Of a DNA stretch of 37,007 nucleotides, positions 3,164-14,718 are shown one piece after another. Source of the DNA: Acidilobaceae archaeon (GTDB lineage Archaea; Thermoproteota; Thermoprotei_A; Sulfolobales; Acidilobaceae); NCBI GenBank assembly GCA_026413755.1, contig JAOAKH010000011.1, positions 1,927-38,933 on the forward strand, written 5' to 3'. Under the pieces are notes generated by a model. That model was given only the letters and a program-made list of their open reading frames with translations. It had not been told where the DNA came from and made no database searches. The position numbers were made by a program, and so were the translations under genes. Each line of letters opens with the position of its first letter. Position 1 is the first letter of the stretch.

Positions 3164-3976
3164 GTGAGGGGAGTGATAGGGTATCCTCTGAGAAGGGCCA
3201 TGAGGACGCTCCACGAGCTGAGGGAGCACGACCCTATACCCCCAGAGCTGAGGGGGTGGAGCTGGGACAGGTTCCCCGTGAAGCCTAGGGCAAGGCTGGG
3301 GTTGGCGGTGAGCGACATAGCCTACGGCTACCGGTGCGGCTGGAGGACCCTCTGGTACAAGAAGAAGCGCGGCATAGCTCCTGAGCCAGGTCCCTCAGCC
3401 CAGCTAGGCCTGGAGATCCACGAGGCCTTCCGCCAGGCCATGAACGATGTGCTCCGCCTCTCCTTTAGCGGGAGGCCGTGGGAGATAGGCTGGCTGCTCT
3501 CGACCGCAGAGAGGAGGTTCTCGGGGAAGGTCGCCCAGCTATACAAGCAGCTCCTAGTGATCTTCGCCGGGGAGGCAACGGCTTCTGCGGTAACTGAAGG
3601 CGGCATGGGAGCCGGCATCCCCTGGCTCACGGAGTACAGGGTAGACGGCTGGCCCCTCGGGCTCTCCAGGCAGCTGAGGGTAGATGCGATGGGGGACGCT
3701 GGCATCGTAGTAGAGTTGAAGAGCGGAAAGAGAGGGAGGTGGCAGGAGATCTCCCTTGCAGGCTACGCGCTGGCCTTTGAGTCCTTCAAGGAGGTGCCCG
3801 TTGACTACGGGGTGCTCATTAACGTCAACCTCCACGACGGCATAACCATTGCTGTGGATCCCATCTACGTTTCCCCAGACCTCAGGAGGGAGTTCCTGAA
3901 CGCCAGGGACGAGGCGATAGATGCGCTCCTCAGCGACGAGGAGCCTGCAGCGGGCAGCTGCGGTGAGGAGGGGTGA
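3164..3976 (+). CDS. csa1: CRISPR adaptation nuclease Csa1 (Cas4-like, type I-A)
   Basis: Cas4-related RecB-fold nuclease of type I-A adaptation modules, thought to act with Cas1, Cas2 and Cas4 in processing or orienting new spacers. 270 residues from GTG 3164. Visible family signs are the N-terminal IPPELRGWSWDRFPVKPRAR and LAVSDIAYGYRCGWRTLWY blocks and the nuclease residues H86 (GLEIHEAF), D174 (LRVDAM), E184 and K186 (VVELKSGKR) and Q194 (QEISLAGYALAFE). As I recall, the family carries a C-terminal cysteine group that completes an Fe-S cluster with the N-terminal Cys (here C58), but only one Cys (in GSCGEEG) is left at the C-terminus. GTG 3164 fits a leaderless transcript; GTG 3173 has GGTGAGG upstream and would shorten the protein by three residues. 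The stop overlaps the cas1 start (GTGA). Confidence 0.87.
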   Translation: MRGVIGYPLRRAMRTLHELREHDPIPPELRGWSWDRFPVKPRARLGLAVSDIAYGYRCGWRTLWYKKKRGIAPEPGPSAQLGLEIHEAFRQAMNDVLRLSFSGRPWEIGWLLSTAERRFSGKVAQLYKQLLVIFAGEATASAVTEGGMGAGIPWLTEYRVDGWPLGLSRQLRVDAMGDAGIVVELKSGKRGRWQEISLAGYALAFESFKEVPVDYGVLINVNLHDGITIAVDPIYVSPDLRREFLNARDEAIDALLSDEEPAAGSCGEEG

Positions 3977-4938
3977 AGGTGCTGGCCCTCCACGGCTACG
4001 GCATAAAGCTGGGGGCGGGGGGAGGCGCTCTTGTCGTCAAGAGCAAAGAGGGCTCTAGGAAGGTGCCGCTGGGCGAGGTCGATATGGTGCTCCTCCTCTC
4101 CAGCGGGATCTCCGTTACCAGCAAGGCCCTGCGGGCCATGATAGCCTCCTCCGTGGAGCTCGTCGTCTTGGACGCGCGCGGGAGCCCCATAGGGATCCTT
4201 TACCACAGCCACTACACGAGGACTACCGAGACGAGGAGGGCCCAATACCTAGCCTATGCAACGGGCCGCGAGCTAAGCTATGCAAAGTCTTTCGCTAGGT
4301 GCAAGCTCCTCTCCCAAGCTGCCGCCGTCTGGCGCCTCTCTACAGACCTTGGGGAAAGGGCTGGGGTGAGGGCGACAGAGGAGATCGAGGGGATGATCGA
4401 GGAGCTGGAGGGGGCAAAGGACAAGAAGGAGGTCATGAAGGTGGAGGCAAGGGCAGCCAGGGAGTACTGGTCGGCCATTGCCCTCCTCCTGCCCCGTGAG
4501 CTAGGCTTCGACGGCAGGGACCAGGACGCGCAAGACCCCGTAAACGCCTCCCTGAACTACGGCTACGGCATCCTCTACTCCATAGCCTGGCGCGCGCTAG
4601 TGATCGCAGGCCTCGATCCCTACGCTGGCTTCCTGCACACAGACAGATCTGGCAAGCCGGTGCTGGCCTTCGATTACGTGGAGATGTGGAGGGCGCCCGT
4701 GGTGGACGAGGCCCTCGTGAGAGCTATGGCTAAGGGCTGGAGGCCCCGCACAAGGGAGGGGCTGCTGGAGAGGGAGGACAGGCTGAAGATAGCGGAGCTC
4801 GTGAATGAGAGGCTGAGGGCAGGCTGCCCAGGGGAGGGGAAGAGCTTCGAGCAGGCCATCAAGAGCTACGCCCTCTCCCTCGCTTCAGCCCTCAGGCGCT
4901 CCTCCCCCTACAAGTGCTACGAGGGGGGTCGGCGGTGA
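3973..4938 (+). CDS. cas1: CRISPR integrase Cas1
   Basis: Metal-dependent integrase that, with Cas2, inserts new spacers at the leader end of the array. 321 residues from GTG 3973, which overlaps the csa1 stop. The N-terminal beta-rich domain (about 1-80) reads LHGYGIKL through LVVLDARGSPIGIL; the C-terminal alpha domain carries the catalytic triad E158 (KVEARAAREYW), H222 (AGFLHTDRSGKPVLAFDYVE) and D234. The QDPVNASLNYGYGILYS block before the His is also typical. The length is normal and nothing looks damaged, so the adaptation core should be active. It is translationally coupled on both sides, to csa1 and to cas2, by four-base overlaps. Confidence 0.97.
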   Translation: MKVLALHGYGIKLGAGGGALVVKSKEGSRKVPLGEVDMVLLLSSGISVTSKALRAMIASSVELVVLDARGSPIGILYHSHYTRTTETRRAQYLAYATGRELSYAKSFARCKLLSQAAAVWRLSTDLGERAGVRATEEIEGMIEELEGAKDKKEVMKVEARAAREYWSAIALLLPRELGFDGRDQDAQDPVNASLNYGYGILYSIAWRALVIAGLDPYAGFLHTDRSGKPVLAFDYVEMWRAPVVDEALVRAMAKGWRPRTREGLLEREDRLKIAELVNERLRAGCPGEGKSFEQAIKSYALSLASALRRSSPYKCYEGGRR

Positions 4939-5216
4939 AGGCTGTAGTAGTGTACGACATCTCTGACAACGAGAAGAGGCTCAAGGTGGCAAGGCTGCTA
5001 GAGGCCTACGGCCTTGCCAGGATACAGCGCAGCGCCTTTGTCGGCAATGCACAGCTGGCAAAGGCAAAGGACGTAGCTAGGAAGCTTGAGGCCATGATAG
5101 ACGAGGAGAGCGACGTGGTGCACATCTTCTTCCTCCAGCCCCAGGAGTGGGGGAGGACCATAGTCATAGGCAAGCCCCAGTGGGTGAGGAGGCTTGATGG
5201 GGTCAAGCTTGTCTAA
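4935..5216 (+). CDS. cas2: CRISPR adaptation protein Cas2
   Basis: Small ferredoxin-fold protein that bridges two Cas1 dimers in the integration complex. 93 residues when read from GTG 4935, which overlaps the cas1 stop as GTGA; an earlier GTG at 4914 would add seven residues, but Cas2 proteins begin directly with the first beta strand, here KAVVVYDISDNEKRLKVARL with the conserved Asp after Tyr. The middle part LARIQRSAFVGNAQ and the late strand VVHIFFLQPQEW fit the family. The final 20 bases overlap the start of cas4. Confidence 0.95.
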   Translation: MKAVVVYDISDNEKRLKVARLLEAYGLARIQRSAFVGNAQLAKAKDVARKLEAMIDEESDVVHIFFLQPQEWGRTIVIGKPQWVRRLDGVKLV

Positions 5217-5763
5217 CTACCTCTCTGCCTCCCTCGTGAAGGAGTACTCCTACTGCCCCACGCTCCCCTGGCTCATGGCCAACTACGAGGCTTACGAGCA
5301 GCCCACCCCCAGCATGGAGGAGGGGAAGAGGAGGGCGCTGGACAAGAGGGCCGTGGCAGAGGAGCTGAAGCTAGAGCAGCCCTGGCGCTTCGAGGTAGCG
5401 CTAGCTAGCAAGAGGCTCGGGCTGAAGGGGGTGGTGGACATAGTGGCGGGGAGCAGGAGCTACACGGTAGTAGAGCTCAAGGCCTTCGAGAGGAACCTCA
5501 AGAGGTCCCACCACTTCAGGGACCAGCTGCTGATCTACGCTCTGCTCGTGAACGACGTGCTGGGGCCTGTGAGGAGGGCAGTGCTGTACCTCGGCAAGAG
5601 GGCTCTCGACATGCCTGTAGGGGAGAGGGAGCTCTCGAGGGCCAGGGAGCTAATCGAGAGGACGAGGAGGGCCGTCAGCTCCCCCGAGCCCCCCCGGGGG
5701 ACTCCTTCCCCTGGGAAGTGCCTCTACTGCTCCTTCCGGAGGCTCTGCCCATACTCACCGTGA
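5197..5763 (+). CDS. cas4: CRISPR-associated exonuclease Cas4
   Basis: RecB-fold nuclease with an Fe-S cluster that trims pre-spacers and selects those next to a PAM. I take ATG 5197 (188 residues) because GGTGAGGAGG lies five bases upstream; TTG 5194 is in frame directly before it. All four cluster cysteines are present: C20 (EYSYCPTLPWL) and C175, C178 and C184 (GKCLYCSFRRLCPYSP). Nuclease residues are D81 (GVVDIVAG), E93 and K95 (VVELKAFER) and Q110 (FRDQLLIYALL). It overlaps the end of cas2 by 20 bases. Its 3' end runs 89 bases into the antisense csa3 reading frame. Having a complete Cas4 next to Csa1 is normal for type I-A. Confidence 0.95.
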   Translation: MGSSLSNYLSASLVKEYSYCPTLPWLMANYEAYEQPTPSMEEGKRRALDKRAVAEELKLEQPWRFEVALASKRLGLKGVVDIVAGSRSYTVVELKAFERNLKRSHHFRDQLLIYALLVNDVLGPVRRAVLYLGKRALDMPVGERELSRARELIERTRRAVSSPEPPRGTPSPGKCLYCSFRRLCPYSP

Positions 5764-6397
5764 CCTCGCCCCAGGGCGTGAGGAAGATCCCTGCATCCCT
5801 CCCCTTTCTCACCACAAGCCCCGCCTTGGAGAGCTCCGAGAGCCTGTTCTTCACTGTCTTTAGGCTCACGCCCAGCTTCTCCGCTAGTATAGCTGCCGTG
5901 ATGCCGGCCTGCTGAGAGAGGACCTCCAGGATCTCCAGGTCCCTCTCCCCTACCCTGCCGCAGGGGAGGAGGAGCTGCTCCCTGGTGAACTTCCCAAAGA
6001 TAATCTTGTTCTCCCCCTCTGCCCTCACCTCCACCTCCTTCTCCCTTGCCAACATCTGCGCCACTACAGTTGCAGCAACTACCAGCAGCCTCATCCCCCC
6101 GCTCACGTCGAAGACGAGGAGGTCGTAGCCCTCCCCCTCCTTCTTCACCAGCTCGTACAGGTCCCTCACAGCCCTCCCGAAGTCGCTGAAGTCTACCCCC
6201 ACCAGCCCGTGATCCCTCACAGCTTGCTTGATGCGGGGCTTGGCGGCAGTATATGCCCTCTCGACCCGCAGGTCAATTCCCCCGCCCTCAGATGCCACGG
6301 TGACGAAGAGGAGCCCATCCCCCTTCTCTGCTTTGCCCGCATATTCTATCGCCTTTTCGTCCGCGAAGCCCAGGGTGACTATGTACAAGGTCCTCAA
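5675..6397 (-). CDS. csa3: CRISPR regulator Csa3 (CARF domain plus winged HTH)
   Basis: Transcription factor of type I-A loci; family members bind cyclic oligoadenylate or another nucleotide in the CARF domain and control cas genes or array transcription. 240 residues from TTG 6397. Residues 3-120 form the Rossmann-like CARF domain, starting LYIVTLGFADEKAI, with the ligand-binding signature DVSGGMRLLVVAA at 97-109. Residues 148-210 form the winged HTH, with AAILAEKLGVSLKTVKNRLS as helix-turn-helix and LVVRKGRDAGIFLTPWG as wing. I reject longer starts because the TATA box at 6424-6433 puts the transcript start about five bases before TTG 6397. The final 25 or so residues are low-complexity Gly/Ser/Arg and are encoded opposite the end of cas4, so they may be an unimportant tail. 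Confidence 0.9.
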   Translation of the reverse strand: MRTLYIVTLGFADEKAIEYAGKAEKGDGLLFVTVASEGGGIDLRVERAYTAAKPRIKQAVRDHGLVGVDFSDFGRAVRDLYELVKKEGEGYDLLVFDVSGGMRLLVVAATVVAQMLAREKEVEVRAEGENKIIFGKFTREQLLLPCGRVGERDLEILEVLSQQAGITAAILAEKLGVSLKTVKNRLSELSKAGLVVRKGRDAGIFLTPWGEVTVSMGRASGRSSRGTSQGKESPGGARGS

Positions 6398-6423
6398 GGC
6401 TCCCCTTCCCTGAAAACTCCGGG

Positions 6424-6433
6424 ATATATTTAA
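6424..6433 (-). promoter_or_regulatory. TATA box of csa3
   Basis: Minus strand TTAAATATAT. Its centre is about 30 bases before the chosen TTG start at 6397, so the mRNA should be almost leaderless. Between it and the start lies GTTTTCAGGGA (minus strand of 6407-6417), also found upstream of csa1. Confidence 0.75.
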
Positions 6434-6668
6434 GCTTTTCGCTTCTGAGCTCTCATGGAAGCTGATGGAGCCAGCGCTGTTATGTTTATTGCCATAAATA
6501 TTCTTGTCCCGGCTTTTGCAGGGAAAGTCCATCAGCCCGAGATCTAGCTCAGACCCATCAGCCATGGCCATGGGCTGCGGGGCGGGGCGAAAATGCGAAT
6601 AATATTTAAGCTCTGGTTATAGAGAAAGGGTGGAGAAGGCCCGAGAAGAGATGAGGGCGCACGGTGCA
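6434..6668 (+). promoter_or_regulatory. CRISPR leader with array promoter
   Basis: The stretch between the csa3 promoter and the first repeat is more AT-rich than its surroundings and has no credible gene. It should be the leader that directs spacer insertion and drives the precursor crRNA. A TATA box TATTTAA lies at 6603-6609, so transcription would begin near 6632, about 37 bases before repeat 1. It holds GCTGATGG (6461-6468) and two copies of its complement CCATCAGC (6529-6536 and 6555-6562), plus TTTTGCAGGGAAAG near 6514, all possible protein sites. Leader identity follows from the position beside the adaptation genes, the uniform repeats next to it, and the degenerate repeat at the other end. 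Confidence 0.85.
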
Positions 6669-7877
6669 GAATCCGGGGCATGGAGTTGAAAGATCTGGTT
6701 GTTAGCCACGAACCAGCAAAGTGGCTCATCGTGAATCCGGGGCATGGAGTTGAAAGACAGGAAGTGCTGGCACTGGTCGATGCTAGAGTTAATAACATGG
6801 GGAATCCGGGGCATGGAGTTGAAAGGATGGAAACATCGAACAGCTAGATAGTGGGGAGCAGGCAGTGAATCCGGGGCATGGAGTTGAAAGAAGCTTCATG
6901 ACAAGCAGCCTGGTGATCTCATGGTCTAGAGTGAATCCGGGGCATGGAGTTGAAAGATGGCACGCGGAGGTGCACCGTGCGTTTTTCAATTTGACACAGA
7001 ATCCGGGGCATGGAGTTGAAAGGTGACTTTGTCGCGAAGCACGGCATCCCACGTGCAAATTATGAATCCGGGGCATGGAGTTGAAAGCGGGGTATATGGT
7101 GGAAAGGAAGGCTATAAAACACGTAATGAATCCGGGGCATGGAGTTGAAAGATTACTCTAGCCATTGCGTTCTTTATCGGATTACCGTGAATCCGGGGCA
7201 TGGAGTTGAAAGTTTCTATGCTCTCTAGCTTCAGCCCATTGCTCGGCTGAGAGGAATCCGGGGCATGGAGTTGAAAGATATCCGAACACTCTGAGCTAGC
7301 AGACTGGCAAAAGATGAATCCGGGGCATGGAGTTGAAAGATCATTCTGCGCACGCTGTTCACTTTGAACTGATCGAATTTTTGAATCCGGGGCATGGAGT
7401 TGAAAGGATGAGCCAGGCAATGGCAGTGTAATACGACTTTGACCGAATCCGGGGCATGGAGTTGAAAGGCCGGCACGGTCATGTCCATGCTCTTCCTGAT
7501 TGCCCTGTCCCTGAATCCGGGGCATGGAGTTGAAAGATCGACGCGGTGAAGCTAAGCTACCTGCTCAAGCTGCTCAAAGAGAATCCGGGGCATGGAGTTG
7601 AAAGGCAGAGCTGAGAAAGTATAGGGAGGCAGGGGGTTTAGTCCAACTGGAATCCGGGGCATGGAGTTGAAAGCTACTGTCATCTCTTTCAGCTTTCGCA
7701 GCAGATCTAGCACGAATCCGGGGCATGGAGTTGAAAGACCATTTTGCGCACTTTGTTTAGTGCATTAATCCACTCCTCGTTGGAATCCGGGGCATGGAGT
7801 TGAAAGAAGTACATCGTGTTCGGCGACGGCAGGCCTCACCCGTTTGTCCTCAAGAATCCGGGGCATGGAGTTGAAAG
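6669..7877 (+). repeat. CRISPR block 1: repeats 1-19, centre GGGGCATG
   Basis: Nineteen identical repeats next to the leader, so these spacers are the most recent. The GGGG centre occurs nowhere else in the array. Confidence 0.97.
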
Positions 7878-7921
7878 GCGAAGGAAGCAATTAATGTGGC
7901 GATGGGCATAGACATAAATAT

Positions 7922-8072
7922 GAATCCGTGGCATGGAGTTGAAAGTTCCCTAAGGAGCTGAGGCCTGAGGGCTGGGGCTGAGGGGAATCCGTGGCATGGA
8001 GTTGAAAGCTCCTTTTTGAGGAGCTCTTCCAACATGGCAAGTTCGTGGGAATCCGTGGCATGGAGTTGAAAG
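7922..8072 (+). repeat. CRISPR block 2: repeats 20-22, centre GTGGCATG
   Basis: Three repeats that differ from block 1 by one base (T for G) and are the plausible parent of it. The same variant recurs far away at repeats 72-81. Confidence 0.97.
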
Positions 8073-8113
8073 AGGCTCGTGAAGGGACAATCGAAAAGCA
8101 GTCAGAAGAGCAC

Positions 8114-9050
8114 GAATCCGTCGCGTGGAGTTGAAAGTTGATTTAAAGATAATTGCTGTGTTGATACTGTTCCTATTGCGAATCCGTCGCGTGGAGTTGA
8201 AAGCCCAGGAGAGAGATTCCTCTAAGGCCGCTCAAAATTATGAATCCGTCGCGTGGAGTTGAAAGGAATAGAAGGAGAAAAGAGATAGAAAGGGACTAGC
8301 AGCCTAGAATCCGTCGCGTGGAGTTGAAAGGATGACCCTGCCTCTGAGCCGGCCTCCCTAGCCCGGCCTCTGCGAATCCGTCGCGTGGAGTTGAAAGTTT
8401 ACGTTCCTGCGCAAGCAGCTAGGATATTGGTCACGGTGGTTATGAATCCGTCGCGTGGAGTTGAAAGTACGGTATAAGGTCGACGGTGATCCGATAGTGT
8501 TCGCAAAGTGAATCCGTCGCGTGGAGTTGAAAGAGTCAGTAAGTTTTTTAATCCTGTGCCATTACTCATAAAAGTCGAATCCGTCGCGTGGAGTTGAAAG
8601 GGCTAGAGGCAGGTCGGGGGGTCCATCCTGATGGACCCTAAGAATCCGTCGCGTGGAGTTGAAAGGGAGGGCCAGGGGCCCAGAGTCGGTGGGCTGGCCC
8701 AGATAGGGAATCCGTCGCGTGGAGTTGAAAGATGCTGATTCCGGATGAAGAAGTGATCAGATAGTAAGAATCCGTCGCGTGGAGTTGAAAGAGGTTAATC
8801 CACTCCTCATCTCCGAGCAGCAGGCCCGGAATCCGTCGCGTGGAGTTGAAAGTCTGTGGCTTAGCCGGCTGGGCTGTTAATGTGGAAGTAGGGACAGATG
8901 GAATCCGTCGCGTGGAGTTGAAAGCTTCACTGTCATGCCCTCGAGCCTCTCTGCCAGCCTGGGAATCCGTCGCGTGGAGTTGAAAGAAGCTTCTCTGCTG
9001 CCTCCTTAGATGCTAGGTCTTCGCTGGAATCCGTCGCGTGGAGTTGAAAG
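8114..9050 (+). repeat. CRISPR block 3: repeats 23-37, centre GTCGCGTG
   Basis: Fifteen identical repeats. Their left border with block 2 involves two base changes at once, and their right border is the 25-nt repeat at 9097. Confidence 0.97.
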
Positions 9051-9096
9051 GTTTGGACAGACATACTTGCCTTCTATGACATGGTGTACACTTTCT

Positions 9097-9988
9097 GAAT
9101 CCGTCGCATGAGAGTTGAAAGGTTATGGCTACTTCAGGGCTGAGGGTGCACCATTATGCCCGAATCCGTCGCATGGAGTTGAAAGATCATTTTCTCAGCA
9201 GCTGAGGCCACGACCTCGGCATAATTTACGTGAATCCGTCGCATGGAGTTGAAAGAAGGTATTATTGCCGAGCGAGGAGGATGTGGAGGAGTTCCTGAAT
9301 CCGTCGCATGGAGTTGAAAGCACCTTCGCCTGTGCATCCCATCTGCCCCCCAGCGCCTTAATATTGTGAATCCGTCGCATGGAGTTGAAAGCGACAGGGG
9401 GGTAAGTACCGAGGCGCGAAAACCTTTCGAGAATCCGTCGCATGGAGTTGAAAGAGGACCTTCTGCACGACAAAATACCCCCCGGCTGGGCCTGAATCCC
9501 TCGCATGGAGTTGAAAGAAGAGCTTATTTAGCCCCTAGCACTAATCTTAGAGTGGGGCGCCACGAATCCCTCGCATGGAGTTGAAAGCGCGGCCTGGCCC
9601 CCAGCCACCGTGGGAGCCCCAGGGGCTGAATCCCTCGCATGGAGTTGAAAGGCGCTGAAAGCGGGCCCACACGTCAGGGCCGATGGCTCCTACCCTGAAT
9701 CCCTCGCATGGAGTTGAAAGTTATAGAGCTGGGTGAGGGCTACAGCAGCATAACACTTGTGAATCCGTCGCATGGAGTTGAAAGGTTCAACAGGCTCAGC
9801 CCGAGCCGGCTGCCGAGAGGCCGGGAATCCGAGAATCCCTCGCATGGAGTTGAAAGACAGGGGGAAATTCCCCCGTAAGCTTGAGGGCCTCCAGAGGCCC
9901 CTGAATCCCTCGCATGGAGTTGAAAGGCCCTCACCCGCTTGGATGAAACTAACTATGCAGATGTGAATCCCTCGCATGGAGTTGAAAG
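9097..9988 (+). repeat. CRISPR block 4: repeats 38-51, centres GTCGCATG and CTCGCATG
   Basis: Repeat 38 (9097-9121) is 25 nt long, with an extra A after GCATG. Repeats 39-43 and 48 have GTCGCATG; repeats 44-47 and 49-51 have CTCGCATG. The lone GTCG repeat inside the CTCG run suggests exchange between units or back mutation. Confidence 0.95.
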
Positions 9989-10034
9989 TCAAAGTCCCAG
10001 CTCCCGGCCTCCTCGACCATTGGGCAGGGGGGAG

Positions 10035-10383
10035 GAATCCGTCGCGTGGAGTTGAAAGCTACATCCCAAGCTCAGCAGCCCCAGGGCCAGCAACCGGCGA
10101 ATCCGTCGCGTGGAGTTGAAAGTCAGATGCTCAAGAACAGGGGGACTAACAGTGCTCCTCCATGAGAATCCGTCGCGTGGAGTTGAAAGGCTATCTTCTC
10201 ATCGTCGAATAGAGGCTCTGCTATGGGGGGAATCCGTCGCGTGGAGTTGAAAGTCGAGCAGCCAGCCCCGTGCCGGCCCCCATAGAAATATAATGAATCC
10301 GTCGCGTGGAGTTGAAAGGCTATTAGTCGGGCTAATGGGTGTTTCATTAACTCCTATCGGAATCCGTCGCGTGGAGTTGAAAG
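10035..10383 (+). repeat. CRISPR block 5: repeats 52-57, centre GTCGCGTG
   Basis: Six repeats identical to block 3 but separated from it by fourteen repeats of other types. Confidence 0.95.
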
Positions 10384-10425
10384 CTCGAGGTACCTAAGGT
10401 AGCTCTCCTTGAGCCTGAAGGATAT

Positions 10426-11327
10426 GAATCCGTCGCATGGAGTTGAAAGACATACAGCAGCAGTAGCTGTGTGTTCTCGAATGCCGGCGGCGAATCCGTC
10501 GCATGGAGTTGAAAGTTTCTCTTCGATGTCCTTCATGACCTTCTCGATAATAGATAACCGTAGAATCCGTCGCATGGAGTTGAAAGATCGCTCAACGGCC
10601 ATCCATGCGGCATCCAGTTTCCTGTGCTTTGGAATCCGTCGCATGGAGTTGAAAGTATGTTCCTGGACATGTGATAGGTGAGGTCAAAGACATGGCCGGA
10701 ATCCGTCGCATGGAGTTGAAAGAGCAGATCCATTAGTGCTTTGGGCACGTTCATGACGTATGGAATCCCTCGCGTGGAGCTGAAAGACTCCTCTTGCATA
10801 TATATATGTCTCTGCCAGCTCTACCCTGAGGGAATCCGTCGCATGGAGTTGAAAGGCACTGGGGTCCACGGAGAAATCCATTGCCCCAATCGAGTTGAGG
10901 AATCCGTCGCATGGAGTTGAAAGGGGGGCATCTACGAGCGTGGCAAGTGCTTCCACTTTCTTCTCGATGAATCCGTCGCATGGAGTTGAAAGTTGCTCCA
11001 TCAAATCGCCTACCGTCCTTGTGGCGTTGCGGAGCTGGGAATCCGTCGCATGGAGTTGAAAGGGTACACAAGGTTGTGGACTCGGGGCTCGAGCCCCCCT
11101 GGCTGCCTGAATCCGTCGCATGGAGTTGAAAGTTTGAAGCCCAAGAGCCTTCAGCCGGCCCCTGGGGGATAGGAGAATCCGTCGCATGGAGTTGAAAGCG
11201 TCTCTCGATGTCCACGCTCCCCCGACGGCCACACCTGGGAATCCGTCGCATGGAGTTGAAAGAATAACCCCTCCATAACAACTGCAGGTATGGTGGTGAT
11301 AATGAATCCGTCGCATGGAGTTGAAAG
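10426..11327 (+). repeat. CRISPR block 6: repeats 58-71, centre GTCGCATG
   Basis: Thirteen GTCGCATG repeats interrupted by repeat 63 (10763-10786), which has CTCGCGTG and GAGCTGAAAG, three changes from its neighbours in one unit. Confidence 0.95.
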
Positions 11328-11364
11328 TTGTAGCCGGCATCGACAAGCGTCGGAGGGATCATGA

Positions 11365-11982
11365 GAATCCGTGGCATGGAGTTGAAAGACTCTATACGGG
11401 CCTCAGCTGCTAATTATCAGACATCGAGAGAATCCGTGGCATGGAGTTGAAAGGCGGGAGCTAGTGGCATCAATTTGAAGATCATCGCAGTGTTGATGAA
11501 TCCGTGGCATGGAGTTGAAAGTCACCCCTGCCCCCTTCATGGGGGCAGAGGCTGCTTGCTTCCTGAATCCGTGGCATGGAGTTGAAAGTTGTTATGATCC
11601 TGCCTCCTACCTTCACCTCCTCGAGGACGAGAATCCGTGGCATGGAGTTGAAAGTTGTCGTCACTGCGAGCGTCACGACATGCGATGCTATCGTTGAATC
11701 CGTGGCATGGAGTTGAAAGGCCTGGTGAGTGAGATGCCCTTCACCAGCCGGTCGAGAATCCGTGGCATGGAGTTGAAAGTACTTCTTGCCGTCGGTGTGA
11801 ACGTAATACAGCACCTTGTACGTCCGGAGAATCCGTGGCATGGAGTTGAAAGGTTTTACTTCTCTCGGTTTAAGGCACCCGGACTTAAGAATCCGTGGCA
11901 TGGAGTTGAAAGTCTAAATCGACATCATCATCTATCACGTTCTCCTTTAATATAATGCGAATCCGTGGCATGGAGTTGAAAG
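11365..11982 (+). repeat. CRISPR block 7: repeats 72-81, centre GTGGCATG
   Basis: Ten repeats with the same centre as block 2, one base from block 6. Confidence 0.95.
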
Positions 11983-12024
11983 AGGCTCTTGCAGCTGTCC
12001 CGTGCAAGCTCTACCAAGTCTATG

Positions 12025-12731
12025 GAATCCATCGCATGGAGTTGAAAGACCATCGCCAGCACGGCCTGCGCGGGCAGCTTCATGTACGCATAGGAATCCA
12101 TCGCATGGAGTTGAAAGCCAGAGGTCAATGGGGAAGTTTTAGCACAGTTTAGGTCATGGAAGAGAATCCATCGCATGGAGTTGAAAGGTCTTCTTCATCG
12201 TCGCGGTCGTGGACAAGTTCGCCAGGCGCGTCTAGCCGAATCCATCGCATGGAGTTGAAAGTTAAGGCTCGGTTAGCACAGGTAGGGGTGGAGGGCTGAG
12301 GTGGGGTCGAATCCATCGCATGGAGTTGAAAGCTCGCTTTGAAAACTTCCCTCGCGGCACGTTAATCATCAGAATCCATCGCATGGAGTTGAAAGCAATT
12401 ACCCGCCTCAGGTCGGCGATGGCTCCCTCGAGGTCCGAATCCATCGCATGGAGTTGAAAGAATGCTGACTTCATGGCAGGGACGAGGGCACCACGGCGGT
12501 TGAATCCATCGCATGGAGTTGAAAGGACCTGTACCTCTACTCTAGCGCTGGCGGCATCGGCATCGACACGAATCCATCGCATGGAGTTGAAAGGAGCCTG
12601 GAGCTCCGGAGGCGGGCGCCTCCGGCACCGATCTGTGGGGAATCCATCGCATGGAGTTGAAAGGAATTCACAAGCACATAGACCACGAAGCCGGCCAGCA
12701 CCACCACGAATCCATCGCATGGAGTTGAAAG
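12025..12731 (+). repeat. CRISPR block 8: repeats 82-92, centre ATCGCATG
   Basis: Eleven repeats; the same variant returns at repeats 115-120 near the distal end. Confidence 0.95.
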
Positions 12732-12773
12732 CCACCCCATGCCTCCACCTGTATAAGTGCTAGTGGGAGTTAT

Positions 12774-14006
12774 GAATCCGTCGCGTGGAGTTGAAAGACA
12801 GGTGATGCCTCATTCACCGAGCTAGCTCTCAGCCTCTATGAATCCGTCGCGTGGAGTTGAAAGTGTTGCCGTCACGACGAATGTTATTGCGATAGCAACG
12901 TAATGACGTGAATCCATCGCGTGGAGTTGAAAGAAGTCTATGCCGACCCACTTGTATGCATTAGCTAGAATGCCATGAATCCATCGCGTGGAGTTGAAAG
13001 GAGGAGGTGAGGGAGTTCCTTAAGACACTAGACGAGATGAATCCATCGCGTGGAGTTGAAAGAGGGAATTGTACCTGTCCACGTTAAGAGAGCGGCTGTT
13101 ATTCTACGTGAATCCATCGCGTGGAGTTGAAAGGACGTGTACACGGTGCCATACGCGCAAATTCACAAATTGTGGGAATCCATCGCGTGGAGTTGAAAGG
13201 ATCCCATTGCCGGCTGGAGTCTCCTCTGCAGCCATTCTGTCCCTGAATCCATCGCGTGGAGTTGAAAGCTGCAGCGTTACGTGCAGTAGAAAGTGGCCGA
13301 GAGGCTCCTCCTGAATCCATCGCGTGGAGTTGAAAGTGAGTTCTTAATACCCGACGAGCTAGTGGATAAGTTCATTAACGAATCCATCGCGTGGAGTTGA
13401 AAGTTCACGTCCATTGTCCTTGAATCCTTCCTCCCCTCCTCTTTGAATCCATCGCGCGGAGTTGAAAGTCTTCCCCCTGCCTTCACTTGGACGATGAGCT
13501 AATGGCAGGGAATCCATCGCGTGGGGTTGAAAGATTACCATTGTCGCTCTCCTTAACGTTAAAGAGCTGGCTTAGGAATCCATCGCGTGGGGTTGAAAGT
13601 CTTGAAGAGAGGAAGAGCAGCGCAAGAATCCACGAGGTCATCTACGAATCCATCGCGTGGGGTTGAAAGGCATTTGGGAGCAAATTTGCTCCCACATCAA
13701 ATCGATCCAGCTGAATCCATCGCGTGGAGTTGAAAGGACCCGCCCCTCATGCGCGTGTGGCTCAACGGCTTGGAAGGGAGAATCCATCGCGTGGGGTTGA
13801 AAGATACATTCGGCCACGTTAGATTGTGGGAGCAAATTTGCTCCCTAGAATCCGTCGCGTGGGGTTGAAAGTGAATGCTATTGCAATAACAACGTAATGA
13901 CGTATTTGTTCTGCTGCGAATCCGTCGCGTGGGGTTGAAAGACCCTTCAGCTCGCCCCCTCATCAGCCCAGTGGGCCTCCAGGAATCCGTCGCGTGGAGT
14001 TGAAAG
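12774..14006 (+). repeat. CRISPR block 9: repeats 93-111, GCG-type centres with GAGTTG or GGGTTG
   Basis: Repeats 93-94 have GTCGCGTG and 95-102 ATCGCGTG; 103 has ATCGCGCG; 104-106 and 108 are ATCGCGTG with GGGTTG; 107 is ATCGCGTG with GAGTTG; 109-110 are GTCGCGTG with GGGTTG; 111 is GTCGCGTG with GAGTTG. The A-to-G change in the otherwise fixed 3' part is confined to this block. Confidence 0.93.
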
Positions 14007-14048
14007 TTAGCTTCATCTTATCTTCACCACCTCGACATAGCCCTCGAT

Positions 14049-14718
14049 GAATCCGTCGCATGGAGTTGAAAGGCCACAGCGGCTAAGATGGTTAACCAGG
14101 AGAACCCCCGAATGAATCCGTCGCATGGAGTTGAAAGTACGGGCTGGCTGCCGGGAATCCGTCGCATGGAGTTGAAAGGTAAGGGGCACCTCGAGGAGGG
14201 GGCGATAGCGGGGGAACAGGGGAATAGGAATCCATCGCATGGAGTTGAAAGGGGCTCGAGAAGCAGTTCTGCCTTGAAGATGAAATCAAGTTCGATGGAA
14301 TCCATCGCATGGAGTTGAAAGGACGTGTTCGAAGCACTGGAGGGTGAGATCAAGGAGATGCTTATGAATCCATCGCATGGAGTTGAAAGCTTGTTTAGCT
14401 GTTTTCTTAGCTGCTCTAGGGGGACCGGGAATCCATCGCATGGAGTTGAAAGTCGCGTATGTGTATATTCCGGAGGGCAGTGGGGTATGATGACCCGAAT
14501 CCATCGCATGGAGTTGAAAGAGCCCGGCTACGGGGCTCGGGCTATGGGGCAACAGAAAAGAATCCATCGCATGGAGTTGAAAGTCTCCAGGGCGCGGCTG
14601 TCCAGCCGAGGCTAGGCATGGTCCGAATCTATCGCATGGAGTTGAAAGAACACGCGAACTTTCGTGTGCTGAGGAAGCTCTACCCACGCCTCGTGAATCC
14701 ATCGCATGGAGTTGAAAC
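14049..14718 (+). repeat. CRISPR block 10: repeats 112-122, oldest end of the array
   Basis: Repeats 112-114 have GTCGCATG, 115-120 ATCGCATG, and 121 a C-to-T change at base 6. The terminal repeat 122 (14695-14718) ends AAAC instead of AAAG, the usual decay of the leader-distal repeat. The spacer between 113 and 114 is only 17 nt. Confidence 0.95.

Follow-up and report, generated by a model that had tools for sequence, protein, structure and literature searches.

CRISPR Locus and Array Structure

The window examined in this study is a 37,007-nucleotide stretch of an Acidilobaceae archaeon genome (GenBank assembly GCA_026413755.1, contig JAOAKH010000011.1, positions 1,927 to 38,933 of the forward strand), part of a draft assembly of 1.12 Mb in 51 contigs with 90% completeness. 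The window, which contains no N, carries an array of clustered regularly interspaced short palindromic repeats (CRISPR) at 6669–14718, with 122 repeats of 24 nt and 121 spacers, situated behind a type I-A adaptation module. The subject of this analysis is the variation of the repeats in this array.

The module was assigned to type I-A adaptation from csa1, cas1, cas2, and cas4, all above Pfam cut-offs, and from csa3, recognized by Csa3_N and HTH domains. The array was assigned to the same type from its 24-nt repeat ending in GAAAG and its conserved leader. The cas1 gene of the window encodes the sole Cas1 detected in the genome. No interference genes (cas3, cas5, cas7, cas8a, or cas6) were recognized among the scanned window genes, to which this search was limited. 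To the left of the array is a leader of about 240 nt, of which the genome has another, 95% identical copy in front of a second array (C45:62314); the leader was also found at several loci of a congener. The downstream flank consists of ordinary chromosomal genes (ABC transporter, V-ATPase, helicases). The same repeat is present in named Acidilobaceae and Desulfurococcaceae archaea genomes and in genomes of the archaeon's own genus. In its repeat, leader, length of more than 100 units, growth at the leader end, and adjacent adaptation module, the locus resembles type I-A arrays of the Sulfolobales (csa1-cas1-cas2-cas4 with csa3).

Within the array, 121 repeats are exactly 24 nt long, and repeat 38 bears a 2-nt insertion that is absent from the younger units. 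All 121 spacers are distinct; the one after repeat 113 (14138–14154) is a 17-nt remnant between two intact repeats. Repeat sites 1–5, 10, 11, 14, 15, 17, and 19–23 are invariant, and the repeat ends are constant. Sites 7, 8, 9, 12, and 16, in the center, change in contiguous blocks, and sites 6, 13, 18, and 24 vary only in single units. The left end is the young end because the leader lies at the left and degenerate terminal repeats at the right. An initial annotation of this DNA had placed a 122-unit array at exactly these coordinates and had described constant repeat ends with a center changing in contiguous blocks (19, 3, and 15 units, and further on 10 and 11); the blocks that it listed are correct.

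Order of the Repeat Variants

Read from old to young without private singletons, the array forms a chain of 20 blocks and nine variants, with 19 changes amounting to 23 base changes, 15 of which are A/G transitions. Fifteen blocks contain two or more units. The statistics used here were chosen after the pattern had been seen. Neighboring blocks were separated by 23 base steps, compared with a mean of 35 after shuffling (20 blocks permuted, no equal neighbors; P = 5e-5). The stepwise order was evident in the old half alone (P = 0.008) and weaker in the young half alone (P = 0.08). Succession by small steps is expected if each block descends from its neighbor, and the repeats are thus supported as a growth record of the array. 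The polarity and the block-wise inheritance of changes proposed in the initial annotation agree with the leader at the left, the degenerate repeat at the right, and the one-base chain steps; the youngest change is indeed the one-base step from GTGG to GGGG.

A simple chain of leader-proximal copying implies single-step neighbors and no returning variants. The former was observed in the 23 versus 35 steps, whereas 11 of the 19 changes were exact returns to an earlier whole variant. The variant GTCGCGTG occurs at repeats 23–37, 52–57, and 93–94, plus 111; GTGGCATG at repeats 20–22 and 72–81; GTCGCATG in four separate runs (38–43, 48, 58–71, and 112–114); ATCGCATG in two runs (82–92 and 115–122); and CTCGCATG in two runs (44–47 and 49–51). 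The recurrence of the first two had already been pointed out and is real, although the list was incomplete, as the other three also return. Because 11 of 19 changes are exact returns, plain inheritance of mutations is insufficient for this array. In a simulation of point mutation on the same five sites, 1.8–3.5 returns were expected with transition weights up to 8 (P ≤ 0.0012), which bears out the earlier remark that the returning variants do not fit a simple chain. When returns were counted on blocks of at least two units only, the point-mutation P was 0.0005–0.015. Per repeat and acquisition, the leader-proximal repeat changes about 130–190 fold more than internal repeats.

Table 1. Positions of the adaptation genes, the leader, and the repeat blocks in the window.
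Feature	Position	Strand	Description
csa1	3164–3976	+	CRISPR-associated exonuclease Csa1, type I-A adaptation; Pfam PF06023, E 1.2e-57
cas1	3973–4938	+	Pfam PF01867, E 3.1e-62
cas2	4914–5216	+	Pfam PF09827, E 1.2e-16
cas4	5194–5763	+	Pfam PF01930, E 2.9e-11
csa3-like regulator	5675–6571	-	Pfam PF22662 Csa3_N, E 1.9e-10, and winged helix HTH_24; true start maybe further in
Leader	6429–6668	+	95% identical to leader of array C45; final 26 nt before the repeat identical
Repeats 1–19	6669–7877	+	Center GGGG..CATG; youngest block
Repeats 20–22	7922–8072	+	GTGG..CATG
Repeats 23–37	8114–9050	+	GTCG..CGTG
Repeats 38–43	9097–9454	+	GTCG..CATG; repeat 38 (9097–9121) with 2-nt insertion
Repeats 44–51	9494–9988	+	CTCG..CATG, broken by repeat 48 (9761–9784) of GTCG..CATG type
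Repeats 52–57	10035–10383	+	GTCG..CGTG (return)
Repeats 58–71	10426–11327	+	GTCG..CATG (return); private singleton 63 (10763)
Repeats 72–81	11365–11982	+	GTGG..CATG
Repeats 82–92	12025–12731	+	ATCG..CATG (return)
Repeats 93–94	12774–12863	+	GTCG..CGTG (return)
Repeats 95–111	12910–14006	+	Short alternating blocks, sites 7 and 16 (ATCG/GTCG, CGTG, GGAG/GGGG); 103 private singleton
Repeats 112–114	14049–14178	+	GTCG..CATG; 17-nt spacer after 113
Repeats 115–122	14228–14718	+	ATCG..CATG; oldest; terminal repeats degenerate

Comparison with Other Arrays

The other two arrays of the genome use the same repeat as the window array, and C45 has nearly the same leader. C45 contains 68 identical GTCG..CATG repeats and one degenerate repeat. 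C15, whose contig is entirely array, contains 86 units of the GTCG..CATG type, two of which have private changes; at its old end come seven ATCG..CATG units. The window array, C45, and C15 account for every repeat match in the assembly (190 forward, 93 reverse). Changes numbered 19 in 121 steps in the window versus 1 in approximately 159 in the other two (C45 0, C15 1; Fisher P = 6e-7). No spacer was common to the window array and C45 or C15. Apart from singletons, C45 and C15 have no variants other than GTCGCATG and ATCGCATG; within the assembly, GTCGCGTG, GTGG, CTCG, and GGGG were confined to the window array. Block exchange with another array, which had been suggested in the initial annotation, is therefore not supported for the genome's own arrays, as there are no common spacers and most returning variants are absent elsewhere.

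For the control set, up to 20 kb was taken at each of 100 Cas1-bearing places in genomes from the same order, and C45, C15, and four array contigs from congeners were added; one script detected the arrays. Those with at least 10 units were counted, giving 104 arrays and 4,772 units. One block was found in 90 of these arrays, two in 10, three in 3, and four in 1, for a total of 19 block changes. Unlike the typical array of the order, with its one repeat version, the window array has 15 blocks and nine versions and is a clear outlier in block number; the unusually rich repeat variation noted earlier thus holds against a maximum of four blocks in any control. Block changes occurred at 14 of 118 junctions in the window versus 19 of 4460 in the controls (Fisher P = 1e-14). 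Relative to singletons, block changes were 14:7 in the window versus 19:104 in the controls (P = 3e-6), a reversal that argues against plain age and against mutability in general.

Four control arrays had at least three blocks (genomes G094, G104, G125, and G073), and all come from single-contig genomes. Each alternates between just two block variants that differ at one central site, and the second and later block changes in control arrays were always exact reversals at the same site. The window array is an extreme case of this back-and-forth pattern. In G104, the alternative repeat version is confined to that array and occurs in no other array of the genome, which rules out donors in trans within G104; the donor, if any, would be the array itself or another strain. 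The return rate per share of alternative repeats was 0.12 in the window versus 0.107 in the controls, counting the controls' repeated identical singletons as returns; by this count, no special rate would be needed for the returns in the window. The window array is exceptional in the entry of new versions.

Possible Origin of the Repeat Blocks

We favor, at roughly even confidence and without regarding it as proven, templated rewriting of the leader-proximal repeat. The leader-proximal repeat would have been replaced about 19 times, each version being copied into all later units and so giving rise to the blocks. We infer that most of these replacements were templated rather than fresh mutations, the center of the first repeat being overwritten, in whole or in part, from an existing variant. 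The donor could be one of the array's own older repeats (internal templates had been the second suggestion of the initial annotation) or, in a sister strain, the repeat that stands first at this locus. A likely occasion would be spacer integration, during which the first repeat would be opened into its two strands and refilled; another would be recombinational repair anchored in the leader. Overwriting would be silent while the repeats are identical and visible once a variant exists, so that diversity would keep showing itself. Internal repeats would not switch because long flanking homology common to arrays and strains, in the form of the leader, is available to the first repeat alone.

Spacer integration involves polymerase gap filling of the repeat (PMC5815122). 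In a Sulfolobus repeat, changes at positions 5–8 and from 13 on barely affected integration, those at 9–12 lowered it, and those at 1–4 abolished it (PMC5815122). This fits fixed repeat ends and a free center, yet sites 9 and 12 fall on the borders of the stretch that is sensitive to change. A broader proposal, which we put forward as possible but doubtful, is that up to about one in ten acquisitions in type I arrays would involve rewriting of the first-repeat center from another repeat, with the window array as the clearest natural record.

Several observations weigh against templated rewriting. When the letters at each site were restricted to those observed, 11 returns under point mutation had a P of 0.011, and combining this restriction with blocks of at least two units raised the P to 0.07; mutation at hot sites remains compatible with the returns. 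No donor tract longer than the repeat was seen. C15 holds both ATCG and GTCG repeats yet shows no return in 86 units. The equality of return rates hinges on the counting of singletons, because in blocks only, control returns were rarer (6 over 261 exposure), giving about 2.1 expected in the window versus 6 seen. New variants in the window numbered 8 versus 0.6 expected (P = 3e-7), about 13 times the control frequency, and templating within one array leaves this excess unaccounted for.

The blocks could instead reflect point mutations that struck the leader-proximal repeat again and again at a small number of tolerant, mutable sites, with the returns as inherited back-mutations. We consider this unlikely. 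The mostly one-base steps at five central sites, the prevalence of A/G transitions, the only mildly surprising returns under the observed letters, and the partial agreement of the tolerated positions with the Sulfolobus integration scan (PMC5815122) all fit such a process. It would, however, need about 0.16 changes per acquisition here versus 0–1 in approximately 160 in C45 and C15 (Fisher P = 6e-7), the alphabet is not strictly limited, since the repeats of relatives have other letters at or near the sites (T at 9, A at 10), and the later block changes in controls were always exact same-site reversals.

Exchange of whole repeat-spacer blocks by recombination between the arrays of co-occurring strains, or with lost arrays, would make the array a mosaic of lineages that differed in their first repeats. 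It would give A-B-A orders with all-different spacers and would supply outside variants, and recombination has been described in the Sulfolobales both between repeats and between whole CRISPR loci (PMC4390879; reportedly also Held et al. 2013). We regard it as unlikely, as no spacer is common with the genome's other two arrays, spacer length is equal across blocks (P = 0.5), and the chain-like block order is unlike random joining, although only weakly so in the younger half (P = 0.08). Fusion of the arrays of several strains into one metagenome contig is very unlikely. CRISPR arrays are hard to assemble, the assembly is a fragmented and incomplete draft, and the named near relatives are metagenome-assembled genomes. 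Against such an artifact, the window has no N, no duplicated spacer, and normal chromosomal flanks; milder back-and-forth blocks also occur in single-contig genomes; fusion at 24-nt repeats would require very short assembly words; and C45 and C15, from this same assembly, show little or no repeat variation.

Other candidates were rejected. Old age or heavy spacer turnover should have raised singletons too, but 7 were found versus 14 block changes (controls 104 versus 19). Loss of units at the leader end could bring an older repeat back to the front, but it cannot account for a younger variant lying between two old blocks. Internal duplication was ruled out by the lack of any duplicated spacer, and block-specific spacer length or composition by the lack of a length difference between blocks. 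Three IMG/VR matches of viral contigs to the window repeat amounted to one chance-like match without an array. No targets of the array's spacers were found in the phage collection.

Repeat polymorphism also records array history in terminal repeat degeneracy and in array collapse and repopulation (PMC8047081). There, the polymorphism lies at the trailer end or the whole array is replaced after collapse, whereas in the window array changes occur throughout and earlier versions return. Short repeats recombine and array parts are exchangeable in Sulfolobus (PMC4390879; reassortment, as reported by Held et al. 2013), but such exchange is seen as shared or missing spacers, while the window array has no common spacer and only switches of repeat version. 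A large-scale survey of CRISPR arrays (Mitrofanov et al., microLife 2026) reportedly uses repeat mutations as a signal of evolution tied to spacer dynamics, as here. Repeats are usually taken as constant, with spacers as the sole record; in this array the repeats keep time independently, as a second clock of its growth. The alternation of variants, milder in single-contig Sulfolobales genomes, leads to the testable claim that the founder repeat is template-rewritten during or between acquisitions, with a bearing on the repair of integration intermediates, on concerted repeat evolution, and on methods of reconstructing array history.

Additional Observations on Spacers and Congeners

An 18-bp palindrome, GGGAGCAAATTTGCTCCC, was present in four spacers of two arrays with differing flanks: in the window at 13670–13847 (between repeats 106–107 and 108–109) and in C15 spacers 22 and 52 (L065). 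Genome-wide it occurs only inside these spacers, which suggests that several spacers were taken from a foreign element with the palindrome. It was also found in four IMG/VR contigs, possibly by chance. Window spacers 12864–12909 and 13872–13917 and C45 spacer 67 (L064) share an overlapping or related target (90% over 20–31 nt), suggesting that the same element family was sampled repeatedly. C45 spacer 20 (L064 7627–7671), of normal length, contains a degenerate repeat copy, GGATCCGTGCATGGAGTTGAAAG. Congener G001 has a similar 23-nt repeat, GAATCCGTGCATGGAGTTGAAAG, at the start of its contig C11, so this spacer may derive from another CRISPR locus.

In G001 (loci L088–L095), at least five copies of the window array's leader were observed, together with short arrays in which, as far as units could be made out, repeat versions are mixed. 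No Cas1 was found in G001, which suggests that adaptation was lost and that the arrays are decaying. The old-end flank of C15 matches the flank of one G001 array. In another congener, isolate RSWP17 (L032, L048, L052), two separate arrays have the same old change order, ATCA to ATTA to ATTG, hinting at concerted first-repeat change across the arrays of one genome.

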